Source: Coptis chinensis (taxonomy: Eukaryota; Streptophyta; Magnoliopsida; Ranunculales; Ranunculaceae). From it: DNA of 64,000 bases. A program made the translations under genes and the position numbers. Positions 1,461 to 53,304 of the stretch are shown here, one piece after another. The stretch spans positions 13,286,001 to 13,350,000 of the forward strand of contig CM027380.1 of NCBI GenBank assembly GCA_015680905.1. Direction: 5' to 3'. Numbering within the stretch: position 1 is the stretch's first letter; the number at the start of each line of letters is the position of its first letter. Under the pieces are notes generated by a model. It was not told where the DNA came from, searched no databases, and saw only the letters and a list, made by a program, of their open reading frames with translations.

Positions 1461-1673
1461 GTGTACCTGTTCATGAAATGGTTCACAGCCCGTGTACTAA
1501 GGGATTTAGAAAATAAACGGAATTATGAGAATCCAGTTCGAAAAACATTGGAGGGAGAGAATTTGCCATTCGGTCCCCGCAGCCTACTCCAAAGTGCCCT
1601 CAGATATACAGGGTTGCCACCTTCTAATGACCGCATAGCAGAACTTTGCCATAAGAATGATTTAGTTGTGTAG
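1461..1673 (+). pseudogene. Unrecognised coding remnant (70 codons)
   Basis: This short frame has a protein-like composition (charged and proline residues spread evenly), with pieces such as GENLPFGPRSLLQ and YTGLPPSNDRIAEL. It ends at a TAG with no exon border that I can justify. The surroundings are non-coding AT-rich DNA. I do not recognise the family. It may be one exon of a decayed gene or chance. Confidence 0.2.
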
Positions 1674-2230
1674 AATGAAGTTCGAGTATGAAGGATTTTA
1701 TTTAGTTGGGTGACAGTGAAGTGTCATAGGACATTCACTCACAGCTCTAATAATAATTATTATTATAATAATTAAACAAAATAATAATGAAAAGTACAAA
1801 GATAAACATCTCGAACAACTAAACACTCTCTCTCTCTCTACATTCTTCACCATTTTCACTGTTTTTCTCTATCATCAACATTTTCCCCAAACTTAACCTA
1901 AAACGTAAGGAAATAATTGAAAAGTTGGACATGATAGAGTTTGCTCTCCGATGGATGTTTTGTTATAATGATCTATCCTCTCAAATTGAAAAGTTTTTTC
2001 AATTTGAGAAGAAAAACCAATACAACAAAACAAGCACCGTATAGCCAACTCTATCATAACGTTCTTTCCAAATATTTTCATACCTTTTCGGTTATTGGTG
2101 GGTCACATGGAACATGGAGCCGTCTGCAGAGTGGATAACACCCGAATTTTAAACAGAAGAATAGTGACAAAGGCTTCACCTATGTAGACTTCTCAAGAGT
2201 GATTAACAATTGATGTTCTCCAGGAGTGGG

Positions 2231-2304
2231 AGAGAGTTATTGGTTTGGGTGGCGGTCCGTTTCTAAATTGGTGGGCTTGTACCGCCACCCCAAACCCAAT
2301 AACC
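2231..2304. repeat. Imperfect hairpin with about 22-bp arms
   Basis: The left arm reads GTTATTGGTTTGGGTGGCGG and the right arm reads ACCGCCACCCCAAACCCAAT followed by AAC. They pair with two single-base bulges around a loop of about 26 bases. The block is far more GC-rich than its surroundings. No target duplication was found. It may be a very short MITE remnant or a hairpin RNA source. Confidence 0.4.
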
Positions 2305-3177
2305 CTTTCCCAACCGTTCATAATATTAATTGTGAAACTGAGAAGATCACAAGTAAAGCATGTGGCACTGATCAAGTTGCCTTTAGGTTACCTAAATTGG
2401 ACCGATTGCAGAGACCGTGTATTTGTCTACACCTAAACGACCACATAATGACCCTTTCTCTCGCATTATTATAAAAATCTACCTAAACTGACCGGCAAGA
2501 TTTTAGTTATGAAATCTAAGCAAATGTTGCCAAAAGTAGTATTTGGGACATGTTTTGAATAGTTGGTTTAATTTGTTCATGGTTAGTTGTCTGTCATTGC
2601 TATATGTTATAAACCAGCGTTATAAAAAAAGTGTGCAACGGTGTCATATCATTCTTGTGCCATGTGGATAACAATATGAATCAACAATACATTATACAAG
2701 CCCAGTAAATCACTATATAAGTATATGCTATTAACCACGTCAAGAACATCAATTGTGTCATATACATTCCATTATATGTATCATACTTTGTTTTCCGCAT
2801 TTCTTGAACGAGGATGTCAGTTATTAAGTTAAATTTTCAACAAAATGTGGACATTCACTTCAAATATCAGTTACAAAATGTTTTGGACTAAATTTATGGC
2901 TACAAAATTAGTAATACGTTTGGTAAAGTGGTTAAAAAACAATAAAATTTAGCTTGCCATAAAAAATGAATTTTTTACCAAAATTTCGGGAGATCCGGAC
3001 ACGTTGTTCTCCTAAATAGCCGCTACCTTAATCAGTTAGCAACCTCTTCTTCTCTTACTTTAGGACCAAAGGTTTGTTTTTACCGAATTCTTCTCACCCT
3101 CTCTCGCTACTATATGGATCTACACCGAAAGTAAATGAGATATGAGGTTGTGAGGTGAAGGCAATGTTAGGTCTGAG

Positions 3178-3772
3178 GTTGTTTTTATATGGTCTGAGGT
3201 TGGCTTAAACACAACGGAGCCCTAATAACTATAGATTTGTGATTAGGGTTGTCAACAGGTCGGACCTGAACAGGACACACCTAGGTCTAGGCCCAACCCA
3301 AATCATATTTGATATTTTGAGCCCAAGCCCGGCTTAGGTCCTATTGGGCAAGTTCGGATTCGGGCCAGGCCTAGGTCCATTAGCAATACATGGGAATTGT
3401 TATTTTTGTCTAAAATATAATCAAATTTGTAAGTGGCAAGAATCAAACCCACAACTCTGTGTGGCAAGCACAATACTAACCAATATGGCTTCCAATTTTC
3501 TATGTCAACTTTCAGTAAATATAATAGATATATTAATAATATTAAATATAAAACACATAAACTATTATAGATTTCAGGCCGGGCCATTATCGGATCGGAC
3601 ATAGGTATGTCCAGACCTGGCCCAATAATCTTATCGGGCTAAATTTAAAGTCTAAGTCCTTATCTTATCGGTTCGGATTCAATCGGGCTTCGGGCTTGTC
3701 CCGACCCATTAACAGCCCTATTTGTGATTTGTTTTTAGTTGTTTTTATATGGTCTGAGGTTGACTTAAACAC
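3178..3772 (+). repeat. Direct repeat of about 35 bp flanking the MITE
   Basis: The phrase GTTTTTATATGGTCTGAGGT followed by TG(G/A)CTTAAACAC is present at about 3181-3212 and again at 3739-3772, on either side of the MITE. The stretch GGTCTGAGGTTG also occurs once more just before the first copy. I read this as a small pre-existing tandem duplication into which the MITE inserted. Confidence 0.5.
3244..3720. mobile_element. hAT-type MITE with 8-bp target duplication
   Basis: The left end begins TAGGGTTGTCAACAGGTCGG. The reverse complement of the right end begins TAGGGCTGTTAATGGGTCGG. The termini are flanked by a perfect 8-bp direct repeat TTTGTGAT (3236-3243 and 3721-3728). Inverted TAGGG ends with 8-bp duplications are the hallmark of hAT non-autonomous elements. 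At 477 bp it has no transposase. The same family, with nearly the same ends, is present at 57632-58088. Confidence 0.9.
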
Positions 3773-4249
3773 TGTTGAGTATTATTGGGATACTCATTTT
3801 GTTACGGTTAGATTACATGATGATATGTTTTATTCAACTTTTGATAGTCCTCGACAATGGTGTGATCGATGATAGATTTGTTCATTCTAAGAAAATGATC
3901 AATACTTATTTTTTATTAACCATCCTAAGACAGTGTATCAACCTGATAGAACATTATAATGGTCTAGGAGATTCAACATTTGTGGTGTCTACTTGTAAGA
4001 TTCCGTTCATCACAAAAATACTACAACACATGATCAAAGATGATCTAGTAAATACAAAATAACACATACCACAACACATGGATAAACTAATAACCCTTGA
4101 CATATACAGAAAAAGTTGTCTAACTTAGTAAAACGATCTAGAACAACAGAACAAAGACGCATATACACATAGCAAAACAAAATAAGAAACGGCAAAGAAG
4201 CCACAACTAAACTGAAATGCTTTCATCTAAATGGCACACACAAGGGCAC

Positions 4250-4544
4250 CTAGGAGTCCATGGGCATGGGTTCAAACTCCTGAGCCAGCATATACCGCAA
4301 ATGTTTCAACTTGAATTTCTCATACCTAAGATTTTCCATCTCTTGGTTTGCTTCTTTCTCCTGTTCCATCTGCGCCTTAGTTTCCATCAAGTGTTTCATG
4401 ACCTCACCAATGATTAAACGCTCTCTACGCTTGTTGTCGATGATCGAACAACTTCATTATGTGCTTGTCTTTAGGAGAGAAAGGGCTGCCTGGCCTCAGA
4501 AAAGCTTTGACGTCGGTGCTTTCCATCAAGGAAGGGGGAGACAT
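4250..4544 (-). pseudogene. Coiled-coil coding remnant, transposon-like
   Basis: On the minus strand a 63-codon frame (4441-4250, ending TAG) reads with strong heptad character: MKHLMETKAQMEQEKEANQE, then YEKFKLKHLRYMLAQEF. A second frame just upstream (from ATG at 4544) contains FLRPGSPFSPKDKHIMKLF, so the two parts are out of frame. Charged coiled-coil tails of this kind end many plant transposase-accessory proteins (MYB/SANT or NAM-associated types), but I see no DNA-binding domain that would settle it. I infer a decayed transposon ORF. Confidence 0.35.
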
Positions 4545-7500
4545 AGTCTAGATAGAATTTTGCTTGTGCTGAAAGCAGAAGATTGTGAAAATGGAGCTGT
4601 GGTTGAGATATTATCCCAGACGTCTGAGGAGATGTTTTATGAAGAAAGCTTGTTGTTATATTAGCAATAAATATGTATTTAATATTAAGTGACTAGGTGT
4701 TGCTTTCACTGGTTTCAAAGCCAGCAACTTGAAACTTCCCTTTGACTATCACCTTACCTGAATTAATTGCACACAGTCAAAGCTTAGAGCTTGAAGTGAC
4801 CAATGTTTAGATCAAATTTACCAAATAATAAGCAAATTTCAACATAATTAATTATCAAGTACCTAAGATGAAGAAAGAAAGTCACTTTAGACACATAAAA
4901 AACGTACATCATGGAAAAAATTATTCATGTTGTTGACATGTTATATATACACTAGAAAATTGCCGTTTAATTTGGTAATCTAAGTTGGTATCTCATTTAA
5001 ATTTTAAATTATGAGAGGGGTTCTATAGACATGTATTAGCAACCTCTCGTAAACAAACTCATGATTTTGAAGGTATTTCTAAGTTTTAGATTTGGCTACT
5101 TTTTTTGAACATATGATCTCCCAACTACTATAAACATTATCACACAAATGGCTAATTGTGGACTGTTCATTTTCACCATTTATAAACTATGTTATTCGCA
5201 AGTTATATTCAACTTTTTTATTTTTTAGATTAGTTGTGGCAATGTTTAAAATAGTTAGGAGATAATATCTACAAAAACTTGGCCTAATCTAAAACTTCTA
5301 AATACCTTAAATTTTTTGAGTTTGTTACATGTTTTCTTAATATATGTCCCTATAACCCGTAAAATAAATTTTAACTTACACATACTTGGTAATTTAATAG
5401 ATTTGATGTACGATTCCAATTAAAATTATTTTCGCTTCTTGCAGTTGCTTTGTTCAAATGATTGTCTTCAATTTGAAATTTTTCAACAAAACATTGCATA
5501 ATTGTCAATAATGTATGTTTTAATTATCTAATAAAATTCATATTTGTATAGCTACAAATGATCATGTGATTTTGTTGTTCAATTGCAATTGTGCTTGGGT
5601 CCGATTGTTTATTGGGATTGCCTTGTTTTTTTGAGTTTTTTATGTGTGTTCGAAAGAACCAATTGACCATAAAGAGCTTCGTGCATGTGCTTCCTAAAAC
5701 ACAACCCGTGCATTAGCTCCTCGGTATTACTCTACTTTAGCTCATATCTCACAAATTTTATAAAAATTGTATTTACCTTTGATATTTTAGGTTAAATTGT
5801 TAATAAAACTCCATATTACCTAAAATATTCATAAAATCAATCAATTTGCACAGTTTATGTGAATTACGACAGTATCTGAGTAAGGGCTCTTATGTGAAAC
5901 TGTAAATTATGTATCGAACACGGATTTTTTTTTCCTTAATAGTTGCAACTTCCTGAGCACAATCGTATGACCATTATTAAATATGAGTTTGTATCCTCTA
6001 TAAACTCTGATTGCTTGATCCCATTTTGAATCCCCGTATTTTAGAGTCCTAAATTTTTTGTATACATATCTCCAGACATTAAATTAGATCTAAGCCACAA
6101 GTTAAGTTTGGAAGTTTCAATTATATTAGGACCACTACTTAACACCAATTCCTCGAGATCAGTCTTCTCTATTATATTAGATTGATGTTCAAGATGAACT
6201 ATCTGATGAATCTATCAGAATACATTTTAGTTATTTTAATTAGCGTCTATACTTAAGAATACACTCATACGCTAGTTCCAATTTATTGCCTGGGTTATTT
6301 CCCTTTTAGAAAATGATATCGGTTTTGCAGACAAATAAATTGTGCTTGCCTTAGAGAATATTGTAAATACCCTCCATTCTACATTCATACCACTACAACA
6401 CACGTGTCCACAACCCAGGTCGTATCTCCACCAACTAGTACCACACCACCAGGACATAACAACGACCCAGACTCAGGTTGTCCTAATTATCGAGCGCAAC
6501 CATATGTGGAAGCAAATGATCCATCATGATCCTGGAGCTCAGTCAACACACCAATCAAGGAGTCATTTACTTTGTAACATCAAAAGTAATGGTGAATCAT
6601 CAAGATAGCACAAAAGGTGGATCTATACTTAATAACGGTCTGGAGCAAATTAGAAAAGTCAGCTCAAACATTTATAAGTAAAGAGAGATGAACTACGTAA
6701 GGCTTGATTCAAGTTTACCTAAGAAACTTGATACGTAAGCAACTTTTGTCCCAAGTAAGAGTGCAACCATTCCCTATTAACAACAACATCAAGTTGTAGA
6801 CACAAAATCTTACACCTCTACAAATATCTAAGCCCTCGACTCCCAGAGGACCCACTTCTGTTATCAACTTACTTATGGACAGCATAAAGTCCCAAAAAAT
6901 ACTGACAAACAAATTTGGTGAAGGGGATGACACGGATGTACAATATGAGAATAATGTTTTAGGGAACCTAAACTTCCTGCTGAGGCATCGCAAAACCAGT
7001 ATACGACAATCTATATCTGAAGTTTGTAATCCGGAGACAGCCAAGTGAATATTCCTTTAAAATATGATAACAGTAAATAGGACAATGTCTATTATAACCT
7101 AGTCCGGATTGGGTAAATATTTGCTCATATATTTGCTAAGTTTACATGTGAAATCACCAAACTGTCCTCATGTCTAATCCATGCAATTAATGCAAAAGCT
7201 TGCCAACTCTCATGTACGGAGCTAATAAGCACCTTTGCCCAACATCAATTTCAAAGCAATTTTGATCTCTTCCCAATAAAACACTGTGTGAAATTTGCTA
7301 GATATTTCTTCTTCTTCTGCTTCATGCTTGAAACAAATTTCCAAACCAAATTTTGAAGTTGTCATTGCTCAATTATAGAAAAAGGTATGTAAACATTACC
7401 CTAATTATTATATTATACTGTTTTAACTAAATATGCTCTAATGTTTGTGTTGGTGTATGTGTGGAAGTTAGTGCTACCACCCTCCATTTGTGTTCAAAGT

Positions 7501-8940
7501 TGCATCTTTAATTTGATGTAAAAGCTTGCCACTTTAAACATGGAACGTCAAATAAGCAAACAAGGACAATAAATTGGGGTTGTACAATATATATTCAATG
7601 TTATTATGAGTGTAAAGTTGAATCATCACACAACCCAAGCAAGACATTAAATGTGCGTATAATGGCAGTTGATACAATAAAGCTCGCATCTTGATACTGT
7701 TGAATGAAAGAAACCCATGAAAGAAAACCCGCATTTTTTAGGGTATATATTTGGCGGCTATATTTGCACTCATTGACACTGAAATTCAAAAAATCAAGTC
7801 GATATTATATTGTCTGAGAAGAGTGTAAATAAAATGAATAACTTACTTGTATCATGTCTTGTACGTACATGATATATAATGTCTTACTATGACAAGCTGG
7901 ATTATGTTGAAGCTGAACCCGAACAGTTCGATATCGAGCGAATACCACTTCAATACCGGCCGATTATTCCTGAGTTACAAAATGGTGTAATATTTGAAAG
8001 AATTTTGCATGCAACTCAACTTCTCACTAATAAAATTATGTGCAACTATCACACTCAGGTGAGGCTTTGCATCAAATTTTCCAAATTATATTGTGGGTCC
8101 TCAAGAGTAGATTGAAAGATGGTACATCTCGTTCATTAACACGACATGGCAATTGCCTAGGCGAATGCAACCATTCAATAAAAGCAAACAAAAAGGTACA
8201 GAAGTATCTTATGCAATTCCAACCCAATGCAAAACACAAGTGCTCAAACAATTTTTACAAACATGTTTGTCGAATACAACACATGGTTCCAAGATAAATT
8301 TTCATCGATGCCCTAGTTTTAAAGTATCATTATAGTTTTCTTGACATTATGCAATCATTGGAAAAAAATTTCCTGAAATTTCTTAACCAACACAAAAAAT
8401 GACAATCAATATACTTTCAAATGACAGAAATAACGTGATAGATAATTAATATATTTTGCACCCCGACTTTTGAATAAGTAATGACTTAAACAACTTCACT
8501 AGAAAAAAACCACAATGATATATACTCATAGAGAAAAAGGGATGCATATACAGATACACAGAGAAAAACCACAACGATATATACTCAAACAGTTGATGGA
8601 ATTTATAACTGAGTTAAACGACTTGAAACAACACAAAATTCAAGAATGGGGATCACAGAATTTCATAATCAAAAAATAAAAAATAAATAGGATAATTATA
8701 AAATAATGATTGAGTGAAGACTGAAGAAGAATTTATAAGCGAGGAAAAATCCACAAACCAAGAAACTAAAATCACGAACTCCAACACCCACATATAGAAC
8801 ACGCAACATATGAAAATAAAAATAAAAATTTTCCATTGAAGAATACAAGATATCAAAATAAAAATCATACCTTTGGCTATAAATGAAGCAACTATAGCAC
8901 CGAAACTAATTTTAGATGTAGATTAAACACCTAGTAGTGT
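4545..8940. other. Long AT-rich stretch, nothing supportable
   Basis: Several short ORFs lie here (for example at 6342, 7879 and minus 7044), but none shows a recognisable motif or credible exon borders. The frame at 7879-8115 has an acidic, protein-like start (MSYYDKLDYVEAEPEQFDIE) and is the best candidate for a real fragment. A short repeat, AAAACCACAA(C/T)GATATATACTCA, occurs near 8507 and 8565. Confidence 0.4.
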
Positions 8941-9375: not shown

Positions 9376-9423
9376 TTAATTGTGATATCAATTATTTAAT
9401 CATCAACTAGTATATTTTCTTTC
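9376..9423 (+). repeat. Repeat block B, copy 1
   Basis: The block begins TTAATTGTGATATCAATTAT and matches 16481-16530. In copy 1 it starts exactly at the CACTA terminus, and block A lies after it. In copy 2 the order is A then B with no gap. Confidence 0.6.
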
Positions 9424-9468
9424 TCCTTCATAGCCCACATAATTGTTTATAAAACTCAAATGTATCCT

Positions 9469-9742
9469 GGAGTCCAGTTAGTGTTGAGCTGTCATTTTAA
9501 TGAGAGTAGCCTGGTCTTGATTGTTCAACCCTTCTTTTGTATTTTTTTAGGGACTAGGTACTAACGATATTATTATCTGTTCTAACCTTCTCCATTTGAA
9601 ATCTGTAAATGATGCACTCTTCTATATATAATATTTACTTGTGGTCATTCCTCTATAATTTCAACTGTTTTCAAGTCTTTGATTAAATTCCATAAATATG
9701 ATTAAAACTTATCTTAGGCATGCGTTGCTGTTTGAAGTGAAA
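9469..9742 (+). repeat. Repeat block A, copy 1 (about 274 bp)
   Basis: This matches 16207-16480 at about 95 per cent by eye, starting GGAGTCC(A/G)GTTAGT and ending TTTGAAGTGAAA. It lies directly before the palindrome-array element. It has no coding frame. It may be part of an older dispersed repeat or a segmental duplication. Confidence 0.85.
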
Positions 9743-10094
9743 CGGCTTGGGTACATGAAATGTCAAGTATACCCACTACACTATTTTTTGCAATCAGAAA
9801 CGGTCATAAATTGTGTTTGGAACGGATTACAAGTGTTCTTGGACTGGAACACTAAATCTAAAATACTATAATAATCACGACTCTCATCTACAGTAGGGCA
9901 ATAGTAAAATATTATTATTTTATGTACTTCTTGGTCTCTTCGTCATTTTTTGTCTGATTTAATATAAAATTTACCTTTATACCTTTGCATATTTACAATT
10001 TAGTCATGTTTACTTTTTGGGTTAGTCAACTATTTGGGCTGAACAGCATCATGTGCGAACCGCACATGCATCATGCTAGTACCTTTAAATAAAA

Positions 10095-10178
10095 TAAACT
10101 CGTATTTTGTTTTGGGTGAGATTCGAACACCGAACCTCATACCTAGAATTAACAGTTAACCAAGTGAGCTAAACGCTT
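10095..10178 (-). mobile_element. tRNA-related SINE-like segment
   Basis: On the minus strand the segment holds an A-box-like TTAGCTCACTTGGTTAAC and a B-box-like GGTGTTCGAATCTCACC that folds as a T-arm. The acceptor and D stems do not pair, so it is not a working tRNA. The boxes and spacing fit a tRNA-derived SINE head. It lies inside the CACTA element. Confidence 0.5.
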
Positions 10179-10768
10179 TTGATACTAAATGAAGCAACCA
10201 TAAAATTAAGACTAGTGTAGCGGGAATTAAGACTTTAAGCAATCATAAAAGGTTTTAAGTTTTTTCATTTTTCATTTTCGTTCTAAACACAAGGGTTTCA
10301 ACTCAGGCTCCAACTTTTCTTCTGGAGGCATCCTCATTTCTCGATCAGGTAATATTATTTCTATCGAATCTCACTCTTTATTAATTTGATTAATTTCGAA
10401 TCAAATTAACTCAAATCACGAATTAACTGTTTCTTCAATTCATGAATCAAAATTGTTTATGCTCTATATTTTGAATTGGATGAAATCTTTTTTAGCAATG
10501 TTTCTGCTCTATATTTTGAATCGGAATTAACTGAGGTTTTTAACGCTCTTTGAATTTTCGTTAATATGAAATCAAATGTGTTTGTTGTTGATTAATGTGA
10601 TATCCTTATTTGCTTGACCTGATATTTGAATACTTTGTGCTTCATTATATAGAAAGAGAGAGAAAAAGGCAACGATGCTTGTATGTAGGTGGTACAAAAA
10701 TAGGTTATGGTTACAAATTAGTCTTTTTTATTATTTCGTGCTTTCTAATTTCAAGTTCCATTTTCAGA

Positions 10769-11117
10769 ATGTCAGCCCTGCTTGACAAATCATGGATGTC
10801 CAAACCTAGGGGCAGTGATGAGTATATAAAAGGAGTAGAATTGTTTATGGCGGTCAGATCCTCCTACTTTTATGACCGTCAGATCAGTGATAGTATACAG
10901 GTATGAATTTTCTTCCACTTTAAACAAACTGCAAGGAAATGATAATAACTTATTTGTTATAATTTAAGATCGATAAGAAATATGCATAATTTGTTTTCTG
11001 TTGGGTGTTCTTTGTTTGCTATATAATGTACTGGTGGAATTTTTCTTCCAGGTAGATTGGGGAGAAGCAACTATGAATCTAGCAGAGCGTGATTACGCTT
11101 GGGAAGGCATTAAATGA
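10769..11117 (+). pseudogene. CACTA transposase N-terminal exon (Transpos_assoc type)
   Basis: Exon one (10769-10900, ATG start, donor GTATGA) encodes 44 residues with the pattern DKSWMSKPRGSDEYIKGVEL. This is the conserved beginning of plant En/Spm-type transposases ('RSW(M)Y..R....Y..GV..F', the transposase-associated domain). A second exon (11052-11117) reads VDWGEATMNLAERDYAWEGI and then stops at TGA. The catalytic transposase region is missing. The short ORF is probably a relic left by internal deletion of a longer element. Family assignment is fairly safe. Whether the short product is made is unknown. Confidence 0.65.
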
Positions 11118-12801
11118 CTCCCATAATCATCGGTTTGTATTTTTATCAGACAGATGAGCTTTACTCTTTGTAATGGCTGGTACAGATCATATGTGTTATG
11201 CATGATGTATCTTGATCCATTTCTTTCGTCTATGGAAATTTTTTACTTTTTACTAGAATTAATGTTTTGGTAATCAAGTGATACGAATTTATGCTTTTGT
11301 CTCTTATCGAGCTGGACCAAGCTTCGTAACTTTATGATTCTAATTAGTCACTGCAAGAAAATTTGTTTTAATAGTAGCTCCATCATCATATCTTTATCAG
11401 AAATGTGTGGAATTAATCACTGCAAATGGTGTCCCGATTAAGTCGACCCCTACCATACCATGTATTAATGAAAGCTTCTCCTACATGTCCTGTACAAGAT
11501 AACTTATTGACCCTCGATCCTGGTTGGTACCTGTGATCGCAATGGGAGTTGAAAATGTGCCCATTCTAGCTGTCTATTTTGTCCTAAATTAGGTAATGGA
11601 TTTGATGTATATAGAATACCAGAATGAGCTAGGTCTGGATTATCTAATCACACAATACATGCATACTGGTACAGTTCAATGCATATGTATTACTCATTCA
11701 TTCAAGTAGCTTATGTTATTGTGTAACCTCATTGCAGCTGCATACCATTGTATAACTTCAGCTATACTTACGATTATATCATGTCAACATCAAGCAGTTT
11801 CGTTGACAGGTGAGTGAAATGGTCCTTTTGCTCAATGGCACTATATTATAATCAATGGATAATTTGGTTCCATGTTTATTTGTGTTTTAAAATGTAATAG
11901 TCCCAATCAATGGAGTAGAGAAATACGTTCTACTTGATAATTGTCAATCATCCATATTTGTTGAATCTGTTTTTAAAGTCCACATGGTAAGTACTATCGA
12001 GTAAGATTTCAGACTGAAATGCTAAATACTTTTGTATAAACTCGCGTTTTCAAATATAGAGGTTCTAACTTTGCTTTAGCTTATTAGTTTCAATTAGGCT
12101 CAATGCTGCGCCTTTGCAGCCTCGTAAAGTTCTGTGGTCGAGAATCGAGGCTACCAGCCTAGTGTCATGTTCTTGTTCAACAAGTTTCTAATGATTCTCA
12201 ATGGGGCTCCTATTTAAACTACATGTCGCATTTGTCGATAGCTGAATTATTAAGTTTTCACAAAGCTCGGTATTTATTTCCAACTCATGTATTCAGGTAC
12301 ATACATACAAATGGATGGCGATGGTGGAAGAAAAAATATTCGATAAAACGGCTTAGAAAAAGCGTCGGCGGCGCAATGGTCGATTTGGGACTTCTTTGGC
12401 TTCAGTTGGATCTCAAGGGGATCAGTCTGTCAATCTAATTTAAACTAACGGTAGTTTAAAACGCCGGTAGTTTATCTTTGGCTGAAATAAATGAGACCCA
12501 AAATATTTCTCACATTGGAATGTAGTCCAAAAGTACCACTCTTCCTCTTTTTGGCGTTCTCAAATTCAGGAAAGTAATCGGAGTTTACATCCAATGTAAA
12601 TGAATCAAACAGACATCAGATTTTCTTACGCTAAAAATGTTATATAAAAGTCCAAAAAATGCGTTACTTATTTGAGTTCTTTCTTATTATCAAACTCATA
12701 TCTCGACCTCGTGTTATAATCAATTAATGTTTTTTCCTCTGCATCTGCTTCATTTCAATGGTCAGGAGAAACCAAAGAACCCCAGCTATGTTTAATTTTC
12801 T

Positions 12802-13035
12802 GTGGAGACATATGCACATCTGACTGGATTGGAGGATGAAATCAATACACTTAATGATCATGTAAAGGCATTGAATGAAGAAGTTGATATATTGAATGAA
12901 AAACTATTGTCTGCTCATTCTGAGATAGATGCTATTAAGGAAACTGTTGTAAAGCAGCACACAAAAGTTGTTGAAGAAGCTGTTTTAGGAACATGCTTTT
13001 GTAGCATGTGTTTTGTTTGTAATTACTTTGGATAA
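12802..13035 (+). pseudogene. Coiled-coil exon of CACTA second protein
   Basis: This frame shows strong heptads over about 50 residues (LEDEINTLNDHVKALNEEVD, then ILNEKLLSAHSEIDAIKE). CACTA elements encode a second, DNA-binding protein (TnpA/TNP1 type) whose C-terminal part often has coiled coils for dimer formation. The position near the right end of the element fits that role. No DNA-binding part is visible, so it is likely a remnant exon. The last residues (after VVEEAVL) look like read-through into non-coding sequence. Confidence 0.4.
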
Positions 13036-13336
13036 ATAACTCAATATAGTTAGGATTTATGTGTTTTCTTTCAATTTATCTCTTTTGGTAAGGTTATGCT
13101 TTGTGCTAATGTTGGGTTTTTTTGTAACATTTGTCTGAGTAACACAGGTATCATAGTTTGGCATTGAGTGCAATTTGGAACGTTTCTAAAACCCACCCAG
13201 GCACTCAACAAACACTTTTTTTTTTTAGTTTGAATGCTCCATCTCGAACGCATAAAAAGTGTTCAAAAATTTTCATTTGAACGCAGCTTAAAGTGTTCCA
13301 CCCTTTAAATTTTGAAACAAATTGTGGTATGTCGGG

Positions 13337-13508
13337 AGAGCTTTGTAACAAGTGCAGTCCGTTCCAAGACTTTAAACATGAACACACCAAATGTGTTCAA
13401 TCATTTTAGGAATGCAGTAAACAGAGCTTTGTAACAAGTGCAGTCCGTTCCAAGACTTTAAACATGAACGCACCAAATGTGTTCAATCATTTTAGGAATG
13501 CATTAAAC
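13337..13508 (+). repeat. Two 86-bp subterminal tandem repeats
   Basis: The unit starts AGAGCTTTGTAACAAGTGCA and is repeated once with few changes (13337-13422 and 13423-13508). The motif GTTCCAAGACTTTAAACATG lies inside each unit. Subterminal repeats near the ends of CACTA elements bind the element's own protein, which is the probable role here. Confidence 0.7.
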
Positions 13509-13588
13509 ATAAACGCGTAGCATCTGTTCCAAATCTGTTCAGGAACAGATTACATCCGTTCCAGATCAGAAAAAATGGTGTAGTGACC

Positions 13589-14880
13589 CCTGGTACGAAA
13601 TAATAAACGGCCCGGCCCAACCGAAACGACCTGGTGTATATAGTATGAGCAATGATTGTTCATATCTATTTAGAATATGAACAATCACTGTTCATACATT
13701 AACATGAGCTATGAACACTCATTGTTCATATGAACAATCATTGTTCATACCTATATTGGGGTATGATCAATCAGTGTTCATACCTCAACATAATGTATGA
13801 TCAATAAAAACATCTATTGGAGTATGAGCAATCATTGTTTATACCTCAACATGAGCTATGAACAATCATTGTTCATACCTATTTGGGGTATGAACAATCA
13901 ATGTTCATACCTCAACATAATGTATGATCAATAAGAACATTTATTGGGGTATAAACAATCATTGTTCATGCCTATTTGGGGTATGAACAATTATTGTTCA
14001 TACATCAACATGAGCTATGAACAATCATTGTTCATACCTCAACATAATGTATGATCACTAAGAACACTTATTGGAGTATGAACAATCATTGTTCATCATT
14101 GTTCAAATGAACAATTATTGTTCATACCTATTTGGGATATGAACAATCAATGTTCATACCTAAACATAATGTATGATCAATAAGAACTCTTACTGGAGTA
14201 TGAACAATAATTGTTCATATATGAAAAATAATTGTTCATACCTATTTTGGGTATGAACAATCATTGTTCATACATCAACATGAGCTATGAACAGTCATTG
14301 TTCACATATATTAATTAGGGTATGAACAATCAATGTTCATATAAACAATAATTGTTCGTACCTATTTGGGGTATGAACAATTAATATTCATACATAATTA
14401 AATATAATGTATGATCAATAAGAACACTTATTGAAGTATAAACAATCATTGTTCATACCTATTTAAGGTATGAACAATCAATGTTCATACCTTAACATAA
14501 TGTATGATCAGTAAGAACACCTATTGGAGTATGAACAATCATTGTTTATACCTCAACATGATCTATGAATAATCATTGTTCATACATCAATATATTGTAT
14601 AAGATACGTTCACCTATTTGGATATGAACAATCATTATTCATACATCAGCAGAAGGTATGAACACTCATTGTTCATAATAAAATGACATAAAGAGTAAAA
14701 TCGGAAAATATTTATTTCAAATCTGGGCCATTTGTCATTAAGGGTTATTTTCATGCAAAAATTGGTTTTCAGGATTATTTTCACCTGAAATTTGTCTTTG
14801 TGAGTGATTATAAAAAAACTTTGTCCTCTAAAATTGTTTTGAATCGAAATTGGGGCTTGAGATTATTTCTTTGTACAAAC
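13589..14880 (+). repeat. Palindrome-array element, copy 1 (main part)
   Basis: A left flank (CTGGTACGAAATAATAAACG and a GGCCCGGCCC motif) leads into an array from about 13640 to 14675 with roughly 25 copies of a palindrome close to ATGAACAATCATTGTTCAT. The palindromes are separated by spacers such as ACCTCAACATGAGCT and ACCTATTTGGGGT. A right flank with GACATAAAGAGTAAAATCGG follows. The same flanks and core recur at 35433-36575. The first 31 bases of this copy (9743-9773) are cut off by the CACTA element. No protein is encoded. The type of element is unknown to me. Confidence 0.8.
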
Positions 14881-15955: not shown

Positions 15956-16206
15956 TTTTGACTCCCTAAAAGCTAGTATTCAACTTGTTAGATTAAAGTT
16001 AGTATTTTTAAGTTGATGATTGGGTTTTTGTTTATTTTATTGATTTATATGTAGATGTTGTTTTTTAAGTGTTTGATTCATGGGTTGTTTTTCTATAAAT
16101 TGAGCTTGTAAAAGTTGATGTGCATTTTGAGATTTTTCTTTCATAGAAATCTAAGTTGCAAAACAATTTGCTTAACAGATTATTTTTTGTTAAGTTTGCC
16201 GGCTTT

Positions 16207-16530
16207 GGAGTCCGGTTAGTATTGAGCTGTCATTTTAATGAGAGTAGCCTGGTCCTGATTGTTCAACCCTTCTATTGTGTTTTTTTAGGGACCAGGTAGT
16301 GACGATATTATTATCTGTTCTAACCTTCTCCATTTGAAATCTGTAAATGATGCGCTCTTCTATATATAATATTTACTTGTGGTCATTCCTCTATAATTTC
16401 AACTGTTTTCAAGTCTTTGATTAAATTCCAGAAATATGATTAAAACTTATATTAGGCATGTGTTGCAGTTTGAAGTGAAATTAATTGTGACATCAGTGAT
16501 TTAATCATCAACCACATATTTTGTTTCTAA
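16207..16530 (+). repeat. Repeat blocks A and B, copy 2
   Basis: Block A (16207-16480) is followed with no gap by block B (16481-16530, beginning TTAATTGTGACATCAGTGAT). Because A and B are joined here, this is probably the less disturbed arrangement. The copy at 9376-9742 shows B before A. Confidence 0.8.
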
Positions 16531-20720: not shown

Positions 20721-21706
20721 TCCATAATACACATACAACTGCTTTTGGAATGTCCTCCTCTAACCACTTAGCTTTAGTAGAAAGTGCGCATGCAATAATA
20801 AACTGGACGTGTTACATAGGAAAGAGTTGGTGTGTGTGTGGGAGGGGGGATGTATCTCAGGAATAAGCTTAAGTGGAGGGAATGCATGCATGGATAGACA
20901 CAGACAGAGTTGTAAATTTTACCATAACAAAATCAAACAAACTTTCATTGCAAACCTAAGAATGAACTCGCCAACCTGATAATGAAGTGGAAATCAAATT
21001 TATTAAAAGAAATGGTTCTTAAAACAGTAGGCATTTAAAAACAAAATTCTGGTACAGACACAAGTTAGGCCGCATATACTGATACTCAGACACAAATTAA
21101 GCTCAATCTAAGTAACTTACAAACTAGTAAGCTGTTAAAGGTAAGAGTTTCTTATAGCAATAAAAAAAAATGGTGTATGCAATACAGCTTTTTGTAACTA
21201 ATAGAAGAGTCAGAGATGATTACATATAAACACAGCTTATTCCAAGTTTGAAAAGGTACAGAACAAAAACAACTTTCTTGCTTCAAGATAGTCAGAGATT
21301 TGGAGAGTTGTCACGTTTACATCTTGATTTCAAATTGCACATCTTAAAGTTGATATACGTGACAATTGGAGGTCAGTTTACAAACTACAAAGGTGGCATT
21401 TACTACCTATCCTACCCAGATTTGCAAATATATGACTAGCATGGATAACATTTTGTACTGAAAATTTTAATTATTTGACAATGGAACTATCATTGTAATT
21501 TTAAGGAACCCAGGACATAAACTTCACCACTATAATTTTAAGAATCAATAGAATAAATATGAGAAAATAAAAATTTCAGAAGATATGGGAGAAAAAGAGA
21601 CAAAAAATAAAAGATAAAAAGAGCATACTCTTAATTATATGAACTACCAAAAAGATACTCTTGCTAAAAAATGCACGCTTGGTAAATGAATAAGGCAATC
21701 GGTTAC

Positions 21707-21767
21707 CTTGACCTCCCCAGTAAAAACCTTCCTGTTGTTGATTCCTTTTGTGTGTTAAATCCTCCAC
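21707..21767 (-). pseudogene. Internal exon of the copia-split gene
   Basis: On the minus strand this stretch reads VEDLTHKRNQQQEGFYWGGQ and ends at a splice donor (GGTCAAG, then GTAACC). Its upstream side runs into the decayed copia element. The exon on the far side of that element (26341-26287) ends in ...KWRSA plus one base, and the two would join in frame as A-V-E if the copia sequence were absent. The phase at the donor does not match the exon at 17420, so at least one small exon lies between them that I did not find. Confidence 0.45.
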
Positions 21768-21797
21768 AGTATATAACAGGCAAGCTAGGAGATAAGG

Positions 21798-22543
21798 ATG
21801 CTATGTGAGCAAGGCACTTCACCTCCTAGCACGAGGACTAAACTCATCCATGTTCGTATTCACGATTTGGAAGGAGAAGGTTCTTCAATGTTTGAGCATC
21901 TTAACGAAATACAGAATACCATCAATCAGATGCATTTGATGAAGATTAATTTGGGAGACGAAGTTGAGGTTTTGTTTCTATTAGGCTCTCTACTCGAAAG
22001 TTGGGAGACGTTAGCAGTCTCTCTACACGGATCAACCAAGGATGGAATCGTTTCCATAGAGATGGCTACCGCATTTTTGTTGAATTGAATGAGGAGATTA
22101 GAAGGAGTTCAAAAAACAGTTCTTCTCACACAGAAATCCTTGTCACAGAAAAACGGGGGAGAGGTAGAAGCAGAAAACCATCTCATTCTAGAGGTGATGA
22201 CAGAAACAAATCTAGGGGTGAAACTAGAACTCCTAAGGCAGAGAGACAATGCTACTATTATGCCACCAAAAGCCACTTCAGATATGAGTGCAGAACACTG
22301 AAGAGGGATGAGAAGAATAACTGTGTACATGAAGACATAGTAAAGAGGAATGGAAACTCAGGCAGAGATACTACCGCACTAGTCGATGATGGTCTAGTGG
22401 GAATTATGTCAGATTGTGGTCAGTGTTGTTTTAGTACCTCATGCCAGGATATAGAGTGGGTGATAGATACAGGAGCATCCTATCACGTCACACCACACAT
22501 GAGATTCCTCACTACCTACAGCTATGGTGAATATAGTGACTGA
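21798..22543 (+). pseudogene. copia gag and protease region (broken)
   Basis: The gag part includes FEHLNEIQNTINQM and LLGSLLESWETLAVSL, the usual copia gag (UBN2) motifs. A frame change near 22085 leads into a basic region and a zinc knuckle (22245-22290) that reads CYYYATKSHFRYEC, in which the second Cys of the CCHC pattern is replaced by Tyr. The aspartic protease motif WVIDTGASYHVTP follows at about 22456-22495. A TGA ends the frame at 22541-22543. The knuckle change and breaks mean no working product. Confidence 0.8.
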
Positions 22544-22545
22544 AG

Positions 22546-23760
22546 ATGGGCAACAATGGAGTCTCGAAGATTGCAGGGATTGGGGATGTTCACATAGAAA
22601 CCAATGTCGGATACACCTTGACACTCAAGGATGTAAGACATGTCTCTGACATTCGGCTAAGCCTAATTTTCGCTGGGAAGTTAGATGATGATGGCTTTGT
22701 AAACTCGTTTGGCAACGGGGTATGGAAACTAAGCAGAGGTTCCATTGTAGCAGCCAAAGGGAAGAAAACTTACTCTCTTTACAAAACACAAGCTAGTTTG
22801 TGTAAAGCAGAAGTGAATGCGGCAGAAGAAGAAGCTTTCTCCGAACTGTGGCACAAGAGACTGTGTCATATTGGCTAAAAAAGGATGGAAGTTCTTGCTA
22901 AGCAAAAGGCCTTTCCAGACATCAAAGGTACACATTTAAATAGATGTACTCACTGTTTGGTTGGAAAGCAACACAGGGTGTCTTTTCAAAGATTCCCGTC
23001 TCACAGAAAGGACAATGTCCTTGAACTAGTGCACACAAACTTATGTGGTCTTATAAAAGTGAAGTCCCATGGGGGAGCTTTGTACTTCGTGACCTTCATT
23101 GATGATGCGTCAAGAAAGGTATGGGCATATAGTTTGAAGACCAAGGATGAAGTACTTGGTGTGTTTGAGAAATTCCATAGCATGGTGGATAGAGAGACTG
23201 GGAAGTTGTTGAAGTGTATTCGCTCAGATAATGGGGGCGAGTACATTGGGCCTTTTGAAGAGTATTACCAGAGTCATGGGATTCGTCATAAGCAGATCGT
23301 TCCCAAGACACCACAATAGAATGGAACAGCCAAGGAAATGAACCATACCATTGTAGAGAGGATGAGATGCATGCTATCTCACTCTAAGCTACTTAGAAGC
23401 TACTGGGTAGAAACAATGCATACAGCCGTGCATGTGATCAACCTATCGCCATCAAAGCCTCTAAATAGTGATTATCTAGAGAGAGTATGGTCAAGCAAAG
23501 ATGTTGATTATGGATACTTGAGGGTATTTGGGTGGAGGACATTTGTGCATATTTCGAAAGATGAGAGATCCAAGCTTGATGACAAAGCCTAGCATTGCAT
23601 TTTTCTGGGTTATGGAGATGAAAAATTTGATTACAAACTCTATGATCCGATTAACAAGAAGGTAATCCGAAGTCGAGATGTTGTGTTCTTGGATGACCAA
23701 ACCATAGCAGACTTTGAGGAGGGTGAGAAGCTACAGGCTTTAACTAATGATCTTGTTGAT
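22546..23760 (+). pseudogene. copia integrase region (broken)
   Basis: The GAG-pre-integrase motif (ELWHKRLCHIG) is followed by a stop at 22876-22878. A zinc-binding CTHCLVGK element then leads into the integrase core, with YFVTFIDDASRKVW (first Asp) and IRSDNGGEY (second Asp). The third catalytic residue, in the NGTAKEMNHT segment, is preceded by an in-frame TAG where the family normally has Gln. Another TAG interrupts the frame at 23590-23592. The stops show that the copy is dead. Confidence 0.85.
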
Positions 23761-23895
23761 TTAAAACCAGAAGTTCCTACTGTGGAATGTGCATAAGGCA
23801 TTGAAATTGCAAAGAACCATGAGTTTGAAGCACATGATGAGAATCCTATTACTCATGATGGGATAGAACCTATTGGTATAGAAAATGCAGATGAA

Positions 23896-25580
23896 GTGCA
23901 TGAACCACCACCTGAGCAAGCAGAAGTGCATCCTCCTGAGGCACCAGCAGATTGCACAAGGAGGTCAGACAGAGAGAGACAAGCTTCAACCAAGTATCCA
24001 CCACATACATATGTTCTACTATCGGATGGTGGAGAACCTATGTACTATCAAGAGGCTCTTGAAGGTACATACAAAGAGAAGTCGTTGAAGGTGATGCATG
24101 ATGAGATAGATTTTTTGCATAAGAATCACACTTATGAATTAGTTAAGAAACCGGAAAGAAAAAAAATTCTCAAGAATAAGTGGATCTACAAAGTCAAGCA
24201 TGAGGAAAATAATCAACACCCAAGGCACAAAGCTCGCTTTGTTGTGAAGGGATTTGGTCAAAGGAAAGGGATTGACTTTGATGAGATTTTCTCTCCTGTA
24301 GTGAAGATGACTTCTATCTGGGTGGTATTGGGTATGACTGCAAGTATGAACCTAGAGGTTGAGCAACTAGATGTTAAGACAACTTTTCTTCATAGAGACC
24401 TTGAAGAAGATGTCTACATGGACCAGCCAGAGGGGTTTGAGGTCAAAGGCAAGGAGCACCTAGTTTGCAAGCTGATAAAGAGCTTGTATAGGTTGAAGCA
24501 AGTACCGAGACAGTGGTACATAAAGTTTGATTCATTTATGGCGAAGCAAGGATGCAAGAAGTCTTCTTCCGATCATTGTGTGTTTATTCAGAAATTTCTA
24601 GACAGGGATTTCATAGTGCTCTTGTTGTATGTGGATGATATGTTGATGTTTGCCCAAACATCAACAAGATATCCAAGCTGAAGAAAGACTTGAGTAAGTC
24701 CTTTGAGATGAAGGATTTGGGTCAAGCAAAGCAGATATTTGGGATGCGGATCACTCATGACAGAAAGAGTGGGAAGTTATGGCTTTCTCAAGAAAGCTAC
24801 ATTGAGAAGGTGTTAAAGAGATTCAACATGGATCAAGCGAAGCCAGTCAGTTGTCCGCTTGGTGGCCAGTTTCGCATGACCAAAGAGATGTGTCCAAAGG
24901 GTGAGCATGAGCAGTCAGATATCCACAGTGGGCAGCTTGATGTATGCAATGGTGTCTACAAAACCGGATATTGCTTTCGGCGTTGGTGTTATAAGCCGAT
25001 TTCTGTCAAATCTGGGTAAAGAGCATTGGGAAGGTGTTAAGTGGATATTGAGATATCTCAAGGGCACTTCCAAATCGTGTTTGTGTTTTGGTGGAAGTAA
25101 GCCCTTACTTGAAGGCTACACTAATGCAGACATAGCGGGTGATGTTGACTAGATAAAGTCCACCTTCGGTTATCTGGTTACTTTTGCAGGGGAGCCGTTT
25201 CTTGGCAATCTAAGTTGCAAAAGTATGTTGCCCTCTCTACTACAGAAGCCGAGTATATTGCAGCCACTGAGTGTTGCAAAGAGATGTTATGGATGAAGAG
25301 GTTCTTCGACGAACTAAGGCTAAAGCAGAAATAGTTTGTAGTTCTATGTGATAGTCATAGCGCCATCCATTTGAGCAAGAATCTGAGTTTTCATTCTAGA
25401 TCCAAGCACATACATGTGCGTTATCATTGGATTAGAGAAGTACTCGAAGACAAGCATTTGTGTATCGAGAAGATCCATACCGACAAGAACGGGTCAGATA
25501 TGATGACCAAAGTCTTACTGAAAGGTAAGTTTGATGTTTATCGTGCTACTGCCGAAGTGGTAGTAGACTCCTCCTGTTGA
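23896..25580 (+). pseudogene. copia reverse transcriptase and RNase H (broken)
   Basis: The reverse transcriptase begins at about 24175 (NKWIYKVKHE) and carries ARFVVKGFGQ, SPVVKMTSI and the catalytic YVDDML (about 24630). Frameshifts near 24660, 24930 and 25190 and a TAG near 25150 break the frame. The RNase H part includes NADIAGD and ALSTTEAEYIA, and ends MMTKVLLKGKF near 25530. All major motifs survive in order, so decay is moderate. Family knowledge fixes the role. Loss of function is inferred from the breaks. Confidence 0.85.
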
Positions 25581-25630
25581 TTTGGTAATTGCATGGAGGT
25601 ATCCCCCTTCACTGTTCGGGAGGGGGAGAT

Positions 25631-26286
25631 TGTTGGAGTTATACCTCATATGAAGAGAAAAGGAGTTCAGTTTGCGTGGAGAAGCTTAAGCGCGCACGCG
25701 CTCCTATTGGTCTTGCTCCAGGTGCGCCCGCGCCCATGCCGTGAACAACCTCCAGTGTTTTTAGAGGCCTTGGCGCTTCGACTTTGCCTTGGCGTGCCAG
25801 CGCCAGCCTATTTTGGTCGGGGATTTCTTTTTTGCGAAACCGCGAGTTTGCAATATAAGGTTTGGGTTTTTGGCAAAACCTAACACATGCAAGACACGAA
25901 AAAGACACAACACATAGAGAGGAAACCCAATCTTGAAAGCAATCAAGATTGAGAGAGAACCTTTACATAGAAACAACCCTGTAAAGAAAGAGGAGTGATC
26001 TAGTAAGGTGAGAGACTAAAAGGAGTGATTGTAATCTTTCTTCCTACTTTATAAAAGGATTAGCTCTTATGGAAGTAGGCACCATTGGCCGAACCACGGT
26101 ATATTTTTGTGTTATGGTATGTTTTTACTGCTTTATATTATTATATGTTGTTAATAGTTGTTTAGCGAGTTGGGAATGTTAGTTTGGTTGTAGGGAATAT
26201 TTAGATTGTTATATGGAATTGTTATTGTTCAAATACAAGTTATTTGTGTAGTGGGGATCGATTGGTATCGGTGTTAAACCTCAACA
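25631..26286 (+). repeat. copia 3' LTR
   Basis: It begins TGTTGGAG and ends CCTCAACA, the TG...CA ends with a short inverted repeat expected of an LTR, and directly follows a purine tract ending GGGGGAGAT. A TATA-like TTTATAAAAGG lies near 26048. A small stem, CAATCTT paired with AAGATTG, lies at 25928-25951. No second copy exists in the window. Confidence 0.85.
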
Positions 26287-26341
26287 CTGCAGACCTCCAT
26301 TTTCTGTTCAATAGAGTGCGCAACATTTTTGTTGTCTCCAT
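26287..26341 (-). pseudogene. First coding exon of the copia-split gene
   Basis: The minus strand has ATG at 26341-26339 followed by 17 more codons (METTKMLRTLLNRKWRSA) and one base, right up to the copia LTR. A longer in-frame start exists at 26440, but the short one gives a basic, mitochondrion-like N-terminus and fits the following exon. The rest of the gene lies at 21767-21707, 17420-17334 and 16760-16698. The insertion probably destroyed the gene at this locus. Confidence 0.4.
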
Positions 26342-27416: not shown

Positions 27417-28055
27417 GATGACAAGCTAGTATGTATCATCCCAAAAAATGGATGCTACATAGTATATATCATCCTTACTTTGGCAGATCAAAACTTCCAG
27501 TAAGAATGGTGATAACCAAGTGATAATGGTGCTCAACATGATGCTATATAGTATGTATCATCCCAAAAAAGGGATGCTACATAGTATATGTATCATCCTT
27601 ACTTTGGCAGATCAAAACTTCCAGTAAGAATGGTGAGAACCAAGTGATAATGGTGCTCAGCAGGATGCTATATAGTATGTATCATCCCAAAAAATGGATG
27701 CTACATAGTATGATTCATCCATACTTTGGCAGATCAAAACTTCCAATAAGAATGGTGAGAACCAAGTGATAATGGTGCTCAACAGGATGCGATATAATAT
27801 GTATCATCCCAAAAAATGGATACTATATAGTATGTATCATCCTTACTTTGGCAGATCAAAACTTCCAGTAAGAATGGTGAGAACCAAGTGATAACGGTGC
27901 TCAACAGGATGTTATATAATATGTATCATCCAAACAACTGTATGCTACATAGTATGTATCATGCTTACTTTGGCAGATCAAAATTTTTAGTAAGAATGGG
28001 GAGAACCAAGTGATAACGGTGTTCAACTGGATGCTACATAGTATGTATCATCCCA
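27417..28055 (+). repeat. About 121-bp tandem repeat, five to six copies
   Basis: Units start near 27417, 27538, 27664, 27785, 27907 and 28027 with GATGCTATATAGTATGTATC. Each includes CTTTGGCAGATCAAAACTTC and AGAATGGTGAGAACCAAGTG. Copies differ by a few bases, so the array is fairly young. The unit does not code. Confidence 0.85.
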
Positions 28056-28147
28056 ATAACAATATAACACAACACAAATGCAGCATAAAATTAACCAAAA
28101 TCTAGACATCTTATTTTATTCGAAATAAATAAATAGACCAATTTGTT

Positions 28148-35380: not shown

Positions 35381-35706
35381 TCACAAGGACCAGGTAGATG
35401 AAAGGTCAAGTATCTATTGACAGGAAATTAAAAACGGCTCGGGTAGATGAAAGGTCAAATGTACCCCTGGTACGAAATAATAAACGGCCCGGCCCAATCG
35501 AAATGACCCAGTGTATAACAATCACTATTTATACCTTACATTAGCTATGGACACTAATTGTTCATATCTATTTGGAGTATAAACAATCATTGTTCATACC
35601 TTAACATAATGTATGATTAATAAAAATACTTATTGGAGTATGAACAATCACTGTTTATACCTCAACAATAGCTATAAACAATCATTATTCATACATTGCA
35701 TATTAG

Positions 35707-35869
35707 CTATTTGGGGTAGTTCATTGTTCATACATCAACATGAGCTATGAACAATCATTATTCATACCTATTTGGGGTATGAACAATCAATGTTCATACC
35801 CCAAATAGGTATGAATAATGATTGTTCATAGCTCATGTTGATGTATGAACAATGAACTACCCCAAATAG
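35707..35869. repeat. Perfect inverted repeat, 79-bp arms
   Basis: Arms 35707-35785 and 35791-35869 are exact reverse complements around a 5-base loop (ATCAA). Each arm contains smaller palindromes, so the segment could form a long, branched hairpin. Perfect identity implies very recent origin by inversion or template switching, or an assembly or library artefact. Confidence 0.9.
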
Positions 35870-35967
35870 GTATGAACATTGATTGTTCATACCTTAATAT
35901 AATGTATGATTAATAAGAACACTTATTAGAGTATGAACAATTATTGTTTATACCTCAACATGAGCTA

Positions 35968-53271: not shown

Positions 53272-53304
53272 ATGGCTGAAACAAAAACCCAAAACACTTC
53301 TATA

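Follow-up and report, generated by a model that had tools for sequence, protein, structure and literature searches.

Arrays of a short palindrome form the interior of a dispersed, probably Mutator-like DNA transposon family

The window, the whole 64-kb stretch of DNA that was analysed, holds two arrays of a short palindrome. A forward-strand scan for the 19-base palindrome ATGAACAATCATTGTTCAT, allowing up to 4 mismatches, gave 27 matches at 13645-14676 (copy 1), 12 matches at 35547-36398 (copy 2), and none in the rest of the 64 kb. When both strands were scanned with up to 3 mismatches, 78 matches were obtained, in comparison to a mean of 0.08 and a maximum of 2 in 100 dinucleotide shuffles; the roughly 25 palindromes that the initial annotation had assigned to copy 1 are thus real, with 27 counted and almost none in shuffled sequence. 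The same annotation had described conserved spacers and flanks, and both were recovered. The spacers recur as three types (13, 11, and 40 bases), and three flank segments align between copy 1 and copy 2: 13587-13640 with 35464-35517 (92.6%), 14680-14862 with 36400-36582 (81%), and 9740-9774 with 35432-35466 (85.7%). No tRNA was found in the window, and Rfam structured RNAs gave 0 matches at gathering score in the 64 kb. The features of the two copies are as follows.

9743-9773, forward strand: copy 1, surviving stub of the left part, aligning with 35432-35466
9774-13585, unstranded: nested CACTA-type transposon, foreign to the palindrome element, with ends CACTACACTATTTTTT and AAAAAATGGTGTAGTG
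13589-13643, forward strand: copy 1, conserved left flank of the array, 92.6% to 35464-35517
13644-14677, forward strand: copy 1, array of 27 palindromes TATGAACAATCATTGTTCATA, spacers mostly 13, 11, and 40 bases
14678-14873, forward strand: copy 1, conserved right end, where the element stops at base 14872 or 14873
35305-35313, forward strand: copy 2, left target-site duplication CATTTGTTA
35314-35545, forward strand: copy 2, left end CAGGGAGT..., a weak inverted repeat, together with the array's left flank
35546-36399, forward strand: copy 2, array of 12 recognisable palindromes, broken by the insert at 35968-36285
35707-35869, forward strand: copy 2, inverted duplication with perfect 79-bp arms around a loop of 5 bases (35786-35790)
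35968-36285, unstranded: nested 318-base insert, foreign to the element, with ends AGGGCTGGAAAT and ATTTCTAGCCCT and a TA duplication
36400-36593, forward strand: copy 2, conserved right end ...GGGCCTTGGGACCAATTTATTA
36594-36602, forward strand: copy 2, right target-site duplication TATTTGTTA, 8/9 match to the left one

The interval 9743-14880 had been read as one element, a reading that we abandon: bases 9774-13585 are a CACTA-type insertion with the 3-base target duplication ACC (9771-9773 and 13586-13588). The interval is not one unit because copy 1 has both lost its left end and acquired this nested element. Copy 1 lacks roughly the first 118 bases, the full left end being present in other loci, and the upstream segment 9468-9742 recurs at 16206-16480 without the element. 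The left flank of the copy 1 array was matched by all 40 genome places scored. The second copy had been placed at 35433-36575; the recurrence itself stands, but its true span is 35314-36593, bounded by the duplication matching at 8 of 9 positions, and its left flank includes one decayed palindrome at 35514. For annotation, these assignments explain two puzzling stretches of the window and keep the CACTA insertion from being taken for element sequence.

A genome search for the flanks had been named beforehand as the test that could refute spread as a unit, and in 936 Mb it revealed both further copies and shared ends. The right-end 18-mer was found with at most 1 mismatch at 549 places (280 + 269; reversed control, 0 + 1), the left-end 22-mer at 62 (29 + 33; control, 0), an inner-left marker at 112, and the exact 21-base palindrome at 3,620 (1843 + 1777; control, 0). 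On contig C1 below 27.2 Mb, where the lists were compared by eye, an exact palindrome lay within 1 kb, on the element side, at eight of nine exact right ends. The family is dispersed over all nine large contigs. The two left markers suggest approximately 200 copies with this left part and the right end suggests approximately 1,200; these counts disagree, so that the left parts are either frequently lost or more variable. Neither exact-pattern scans of viral and prokaryotic contigs nor a blastn search of phages and plasmids gave a match. A literature search with three unit and end sequences returned no publication, and within the open-licence papers reached by topic searches the element is undescribed. 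The host of the transposon is probably a plant.

Sixty loci were fetched as the best hits of two queries, a set biased to top scores; because each query held at least one palindrome, copies free of an array would be missed. Both ends were obtained for 36 loci, and 24 failed the thresholds. The common termini are CAGGGAGTAACTCTAGAGGACAAATC...GGGCCTTGGGACCAATTTCTTG, and element length ranges from 783 to 1704 bp with nested inserts included (e.g., the 318 bases in copy 2). All 36 two-ended copies carry an internal array of 8 to 34 palindromes, with 34, 32, 61, and 19 bases as the most common unit steps; the opening unit order (b a. b c a) is identical in 10 of these arrays, and the same a plus 38-base spacer lies near the right end in 13.

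Eight of the two-ended loci shared a flank with another locus and were dropped, leaving 28 distinct sites. Twenty-one of the 28 carry a target duplication of 9 bases in which 8 or 9 positions agree when the boundaries may shift by 1-2 bases, in comparison to 1.4% of mismatched pairs in which flanks of different loci were combined. Perfect boundary matches had a length of 9 at 11 sites, 10 at one, 7 at one, and 5 at two, and the remaining lengths from 5 to 13 were seen at none; this includes the 8 bases of a hAT duplication (0 of 28). The AT content of the duplications was 90%, and that of the flanks 65%. The fixed test failed at seven sites, among them L017, where a 3-base misplacement of the left boundary accounts for the failure. 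Spread as a unit with conserved flanks, as originally proposed, is supported by these results, both ends being common to 36 of the 60 loci and the duplications to 21 of the 28 sites. The same right flank does accompany copy 2 and eight further loci, and the same left flank L006, L015, and L025, as would be expected if the two window copies were a plain segmental duplication or satellite; with 28 distinct flanks around common element ends, 21 of them with 9-base duplications, that explanation has a negligible probability, and the target-duplication test refutes it for the family as a whole. We conclude that an old DNA transposon, dispersed through the genome and delimited by fixed ends and 9-base target duplications, has the arrays as its interior.

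Non-autonomous MULEs are dispersed elements with 9-base duplications, weakly similar inverted ends, and no transposase gene of their own. The present family resembles them in its 9-base duplications, weak inverted ends, and dispersal, and no transposase gene was shown in the copies read; it differs from the typical case in that its interior is one block of 21-base palindromes. The inverted similarity of the end consensus scored 82.7, with a maximum of 57.4 in 500 shuffles, and terminal inverted repeats are present in degenerate form only, next to a duplication of the length seen in MULEs. The arrays are very likely the interior of one non-autonomous Mutator-like (MULE) DNA transposon family. 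The superfamily assignment rests on the 9-base duplication and the weak ends because no transposase-bearing partner with these ends was established among the copies read.

The MULE domain is plentiful in the genome (150 of 4347 candidates were scored), and comparison of its places with the 62 left ends by eye gave one that is close to an end. This locus, L071, has both ends 8.6 kb apart, a FAR1/MULE frame, and LRR and kinase pieces. It was rejected as the autonomous partner after self-comparison, which placed the MULE gene in a different MULE (185-bp inverted repeats at 97.8%) nested within a hAT-like insert in the array. This insert accounts for the internal 7.2 kb and, by eye, has the 8-base duplication ATCAGTAT; its ends also match L045 and L058. 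A second place, on contig C5, has the same layout (hit at 77608294, left end at 77614310), and a candidate end pair of 6.9 kb lies on contig C2 (left end 6707855, right end 6714719). Ten copies with no nearby right end were read further, and four of these (L061, L062, L065, and L068) supplied ten long frames for a domain search; nine match domains of retrotransposon or LINE type (RT, RNase H-like, gag, protease, integrase, and DUF4283) and one matches nothing. The transposon seems unable to move on its own.

In the foldback plan, tandem repeats lie within long terminal inverted repeats. The 9-base duplications and the many palindromes would suit a classical foldback transposon whose repeats are its terminal inverted repeats, and a foldback-type element had been suggested, but here the array is one internal block approximately 200 bases from each end, and the ends are weak inverted repeats whose consensus holds a palindrome only at the inner edge, where the array begins. 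In this strict sense, we consider a foldback transposon highly improbable. Some Mutator-like elements do have foldback-like ends with internal repeats, such as Tm1 of the root-knot nematode, which shares with our family the 9-base duplications and short tandem repeats of variable number but has repeats of ∼14 bases that form its terminal inverted repeats (PMC3169594). Likewise, Tetris, a foldback element of Drosophila virilis that feeds a satellite, is a non-autonomous element with internal tandem repeats, although they are ∼220 bp long and lie within the inverted repeats, whereas the 21-base palindromes here are interior (PMC4079207). The short interrupted repeat cassettes (SIRC) of Arabidopsis are similar in their spaced short repeats, their link to MITEs, and some small palindromes; they differ in having 2-8 repeats with diverse DNA between, in place of conserved spacers and 8-34 units (PMC10342631).

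The arrays fold far better than shuffled sequence, with z -12.7 in a 361-nt stretch of copy 1 and z -24 over the 181 nt that surround the hairpin of copy 2. This folding and the perfect 79-bp stem of copy 2 would suit a source of hairpin small RNA that acts in silencing or regulation, whether the RNA came from single units or from extended inverted stretches. The stems of single units are 9 bp, however, and paired positions lack covariation. Over 614 units, no pair exceeded the maximum of 200 column shuffles, the loop-adjoining pair fell below them, and compensated changes made up 9 of 5,526 cells. Among the 27 distinct window units, none had changes on both sides, and 91.4% of positions were paired as compared to 92.2% after shuffling. 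These units do not show the stem pairing maintained by compensatory changes that marks a miRNA or siRNA hairpin gene. Moreover, the 79-bp hairpin is private to copy 2: in the 60 loci compared, the next longest perfect arm reaches 28 when loops of at most 12 are allowed. A source of hairpin small RNA had been suggested; covariation gives no support for such RNA as a maintained function or family trait, and we regard this source as very unlikely. A spacer sorter placed 31 of 578 spacers in inverted classes, but this number is not relied on, since in many cases the sorter had misread the usual last two spacers; the sole secure inverted segment is the copy 2 hairpin.

Change rates were computed over the same 614 units. 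Those of the whole palindrome (0.050 at A/T sites and 0.174 at C/G sites) are bracketed by the spacers (0.027-0.101 and 0.157-0.202) and lie close to the flanks (0.056 at A/T sites; 0.171 and 0.181 at C/G sites), so that the palindrome taken whole changes about as fast as its surroundings. At the A/T sites of the palindrome other than positions 8, 10, and 12, the rate is 0.025, less than half that of the flanks and a possible hint of constraint or homogenisation. In the flanks, C-to-T changes reached 17.1% at CG, 15.9% at CHG, and 9.0% at CHH, with A/T transitions at 2.4%, a pattern that fits methylated DNA.

These slower sites would also be expected if the array were a dense protein-binding platform, as motif arrays in the VANDAL elements of Arabidopsis are for the elements' own anti-silencing VANC proteins, or if it carried sites for the transposase or host factors. 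The array is kept in each of the 36 two-ended copies with regular unit steps, and the two arrays together contain the core CAATNATTG 18 times, in comparison to one occurrence in the remainder of the window. This core resembles the binding site of plant HD-Zip proteins, which has an HD-Zip I and an HD-Zip II form, and it is because of the core that such a site was considered. The HD-Zip I site is given in PMC3060862. Against a binding role, conservation of the full palindrome does not exceed that of the spacers and flanks, the A/T sites of spacer b are equally steady (0.027), and the core is intact in only 235 of 614 units, with its inner positions 8, 10, and 12 ranking among the most variable sites. 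A binding platform appears unlikely. VANDAL elements of Arabidopsis are described as having degenerate inverted repeats and non-coding short tandem motifs whose number varies between copies, the VANC21 motif YAGTATTAY being 9 bases long in elements that encode VANA and VANC (PMC5735166, PMC10398659). Our family, with 8-34 units in 36 loci, is similar in its short motif arrays of varying number, to which binding is only putative; its unit is a longer palindrome, and no VANA or VANC genes were seen in the copies read, no coding copy being among them. Also unlikely is a selected recognition array, in which a trans-acting protein would bind many units at once and the family would thereby have seeded the genome with thousands of copies of one palindromic site; the binder could be the transposase, a host HD-Zip factor, or an anti-silencing factor encoded by the element as in VANDALs. 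If such recognition did occur, hairpins like the 79-bp one in copy 2 could, through small RNA, set the array against the family that carries it.

Returning to the MULE assignment, the results are consistent with a course in which a MULE transposase encoded elsewhere would cut and paste the element by way of its ends, the founding copies already having had an array. The array would then expand and contract by slippage and unequal exchange, more in the middle than at the ends. Each unit is almost identical to its reverse complement, which allows inverted duplications to form between units, and template switching or recombination may have produced those such as the perfect hairpin of copy 2. After insertion, the array would mostly decay along with the rest of the element. 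The plan of the element is unusual, and little in its sequence suggests that the array is retained for any role of its own. The family illustrates how thousands of copies of one 21-base palindrome can be spread by a plain non-autonomous transposon, and the 549 right ends (at most 1 mismatch) are a natural set for following the growth, shrinkage, and inversion of palindromic minisatellites inside a mobile element. If a protein does bind the units, the family would add to the known Mutator-type elements with array-based recognition; if none does, it would be an example of an array that arose and decayed without clear selection.

The palindrome ATGAACAATCATTGTTCAT, 21 bases long when a flanking T and A are counted, had 27 matches at 13645-14676 and 12 matches at 35547-36398 on the forward strand, and none in the rest of the window on that strand (at most 4 mismatches). 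With at most 3 mismatches, 78 strand-counted matches were present, compared to a mean of 0.08 in the shuffled window. Three recurring kinds of spacer (CCTCAACATGAGC, CCTATTTGGGG, and a third of 40 bases) separate the units. The palindromes and spacers stand as initially annotated, but the extents of both copies needed correcting: the stretch 9743-14880, taken as a single element, contains a CACTA-type transposon inserted into copy 1, and copy 2, placed at 35433-36575, spans 35314-36593. The nested inserts are as follows.

9774-13585: CACTA-type transposon nested in copy 1, ends CACTACACTATTTTTT / AAAAAATGGTGTAGTG, duplication ACC
35968-36285: insert of 318 bases nested in copy 2, inverted ends AGGGCTGGAAAT, TA duplication

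Two 86-base tandem repeats (13337-13509) lie near the right end of the CACTA-type insert, and CGGATTCGGGTCGG motifs occur in the inner sequence of the 318-base insert. Copy 1 has lost approximately its first 118 bases. Its left neighbor, 9468-9742, was found again without the element at 16206-16480, forming a 275-base direct repeat (95.3% identity) that flanks 6.5 kb; the sequence that continues the second repeat (16481-16528) is similar to 9376-9424 (85.7%), a stretch lying upstream of the first repeat, and simple tandem duplication does not explain this order. Copy 2 is bounded by the target duplication pair CATTTGTTA/TATTTGTTA. Because copy 2 and eight other loci, together L031-L037, L039, and L040 of the fetched genome matches, have one right flank in common, we conclude that copy 2 is one old insertion that was also amplified inside a larger repeat. 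Elsewhere in the window, ∼21700-26300 resembles by eye a decayed Copia-type retrotransposon, and tandem arrays of a 122-base unit (5.1 repeats, 27427-28056) and an 87-base unit (6.9 repeats, 53300-53897) are of another kind than the palindrome arrays.

Alignment of 60 genome loci revealed common ends, CAGGGAGTAACTCTAGAGGACAAATCGGGGG on the left and GGGCCTTGGGACCAATTTCTTG on the right; under the set thresholds both were found in 36 loci, representing 28 distinct insertion sites. Allowing shifts of 1-2 bases, 9-base target duplications that agree at 8 or 9 positions were present at 21 of the 28 sites, compared to 1.4% when left and right flanks from different loci were paired. Direct comparison at both boundaries of these sites gave perfect 9-base matches at 11, a 10-base match at one, and 8-base matches at none. 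The duplicated targets were 90% AT versus 65% for the flanks. The two ends share inverted similarity of low identity (score 82.7 versus at most 57.4 for shuffles). Duplications of 9 bases and weakly similar inverted ends are marks of Mutator-like elements (MULEs), and by these features the family appears to be a MULE with a palindromic minisatellite as its interior. A foldback element does not fit, since the array here is internal, and neither does a SIRC, given the conserved spacers and many units. No transposase-bearing partner with the family's ends was established among the loci read. A separate MULE, apparently young, was seen at locus L071 (reverse complement 1637-7849), nested in a hAT-like insert; it has 185-bp inverted repeats at 97.8%, contains protein-kinase and LRR fragments besides a FAR1+MULE frame, and is perhaps a gene-capturing Jittery-like element.

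The genome, 936 Mb in 116 contigs and judged to be a plant's by its transposons and FAR1-type genes, was searched with a 174-base probe of the left flank and first units and a 203-base right-flank probe that starts with the 20 bases of the final palindrome, yielding 1991 and 1142 first-look candidates, respectively; all 40 places scored for each probe matched. Genome-wide, the right-end 18-mer with at most 1 mismatch occurred at 549 places and its reversed control at 1. Controls gave no match for the other three patterns: the left-end 22-mer (62 places), an inner left marker with at most 2 mismatches (112), and the exact 21-base palindrome (3,620). At the ∼10% divergence of copies from the consensus, the right-end count corresponds by arithmetic to roughly 1,200 copies, and the counts of both left markers to only ∼200. 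The family's right part and its array are therefore common, and the left part found in copies 1 and 2 is either frequently lost or just one of several variants. As 87 of 614 units are exact on either strand, the 3,620 exact palindromes suggest 1,000-2,000 copies.

Arrays of 8-34 units were present in all 36 two-ended loci, whose elements measure 783-1704 bp, nested inserts included. The starting unit order was identical in 10 arrays and a spacer pair near the right end in 13, the middle being the part that differs. At loci L006 and L015, which represent a single insertion site, the layouts are unlike, so arrays change once the element has inserted. A perfect inverted duplication of 79 bp around a 5-base loop lies in copy 2 (35707-35869; RNA folding z of -24); with loops of up to 12, the next longest perfect arm among the 60 loci is 28. 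The duplication probably arose later than copy 2 itself, since its arms are identical whereas the right flanks of copies 1 and 2 differ by 19%.

As a less likely alternative to a passenger role, the array might serve as a binding array, as in VANDAL elements, or as a source of small RNA. In the copies seen, most tests indicate that the palindrome is not kept. Its change rates over all positions of the 614 units (A/T, 0.050; C/G, 0.174) are close to those of the flanks (A/T, 0.056; C/G, 0.171 and 0.181) and spacers (A/T, 0.027-0.101; C/G, 0.157-0.202). Across these units, Watson-Crick pairs at paired positions showed no excess over shuffled columns, the pair adjoining the loop had fewer, and compensated changes numbered 9 in 5,526 cells, with none in 27 distinct units of the window; the core CAATNATTG was intact in 235. 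One result stands against this reading: without positions 8, 10, and 12, palindrome A/T sites changed at 0.025, less than half the flank rate, a figure lowered by choosing units for similarity (at most 5 mismatches); spacer b was as steady (0.027). These tests cover inserted copies, and selection on an active parent would be invisible to them. C-to-T changes in the flanks (CG, 17.1%; CHG, 15.9%; CHH, 9.0%) are elevated over A/T transitions (2.4%), and four palindrome C/G sites, all CHH, have 12.3%; this would fit DNA methylated like silenced transposons.

From the 9-base duplications we infer that a MULE transposase produced elsewhere most likely moves the element via its ends. Founding copies would already have carried the array as a passenger, slippage or unequal exchange may turn it over, and self-complementary units would permit inverted duplications. 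The nearest systems in working plan are the VANDAL target arrays (PMC5735166, PMC10398659), a likeness of working that does not imply membership, and Tm1, which has short repeats of varying number inside a Mutator-like element (PMC3169594). The element's unit and end sequences had no match in the papers searched.
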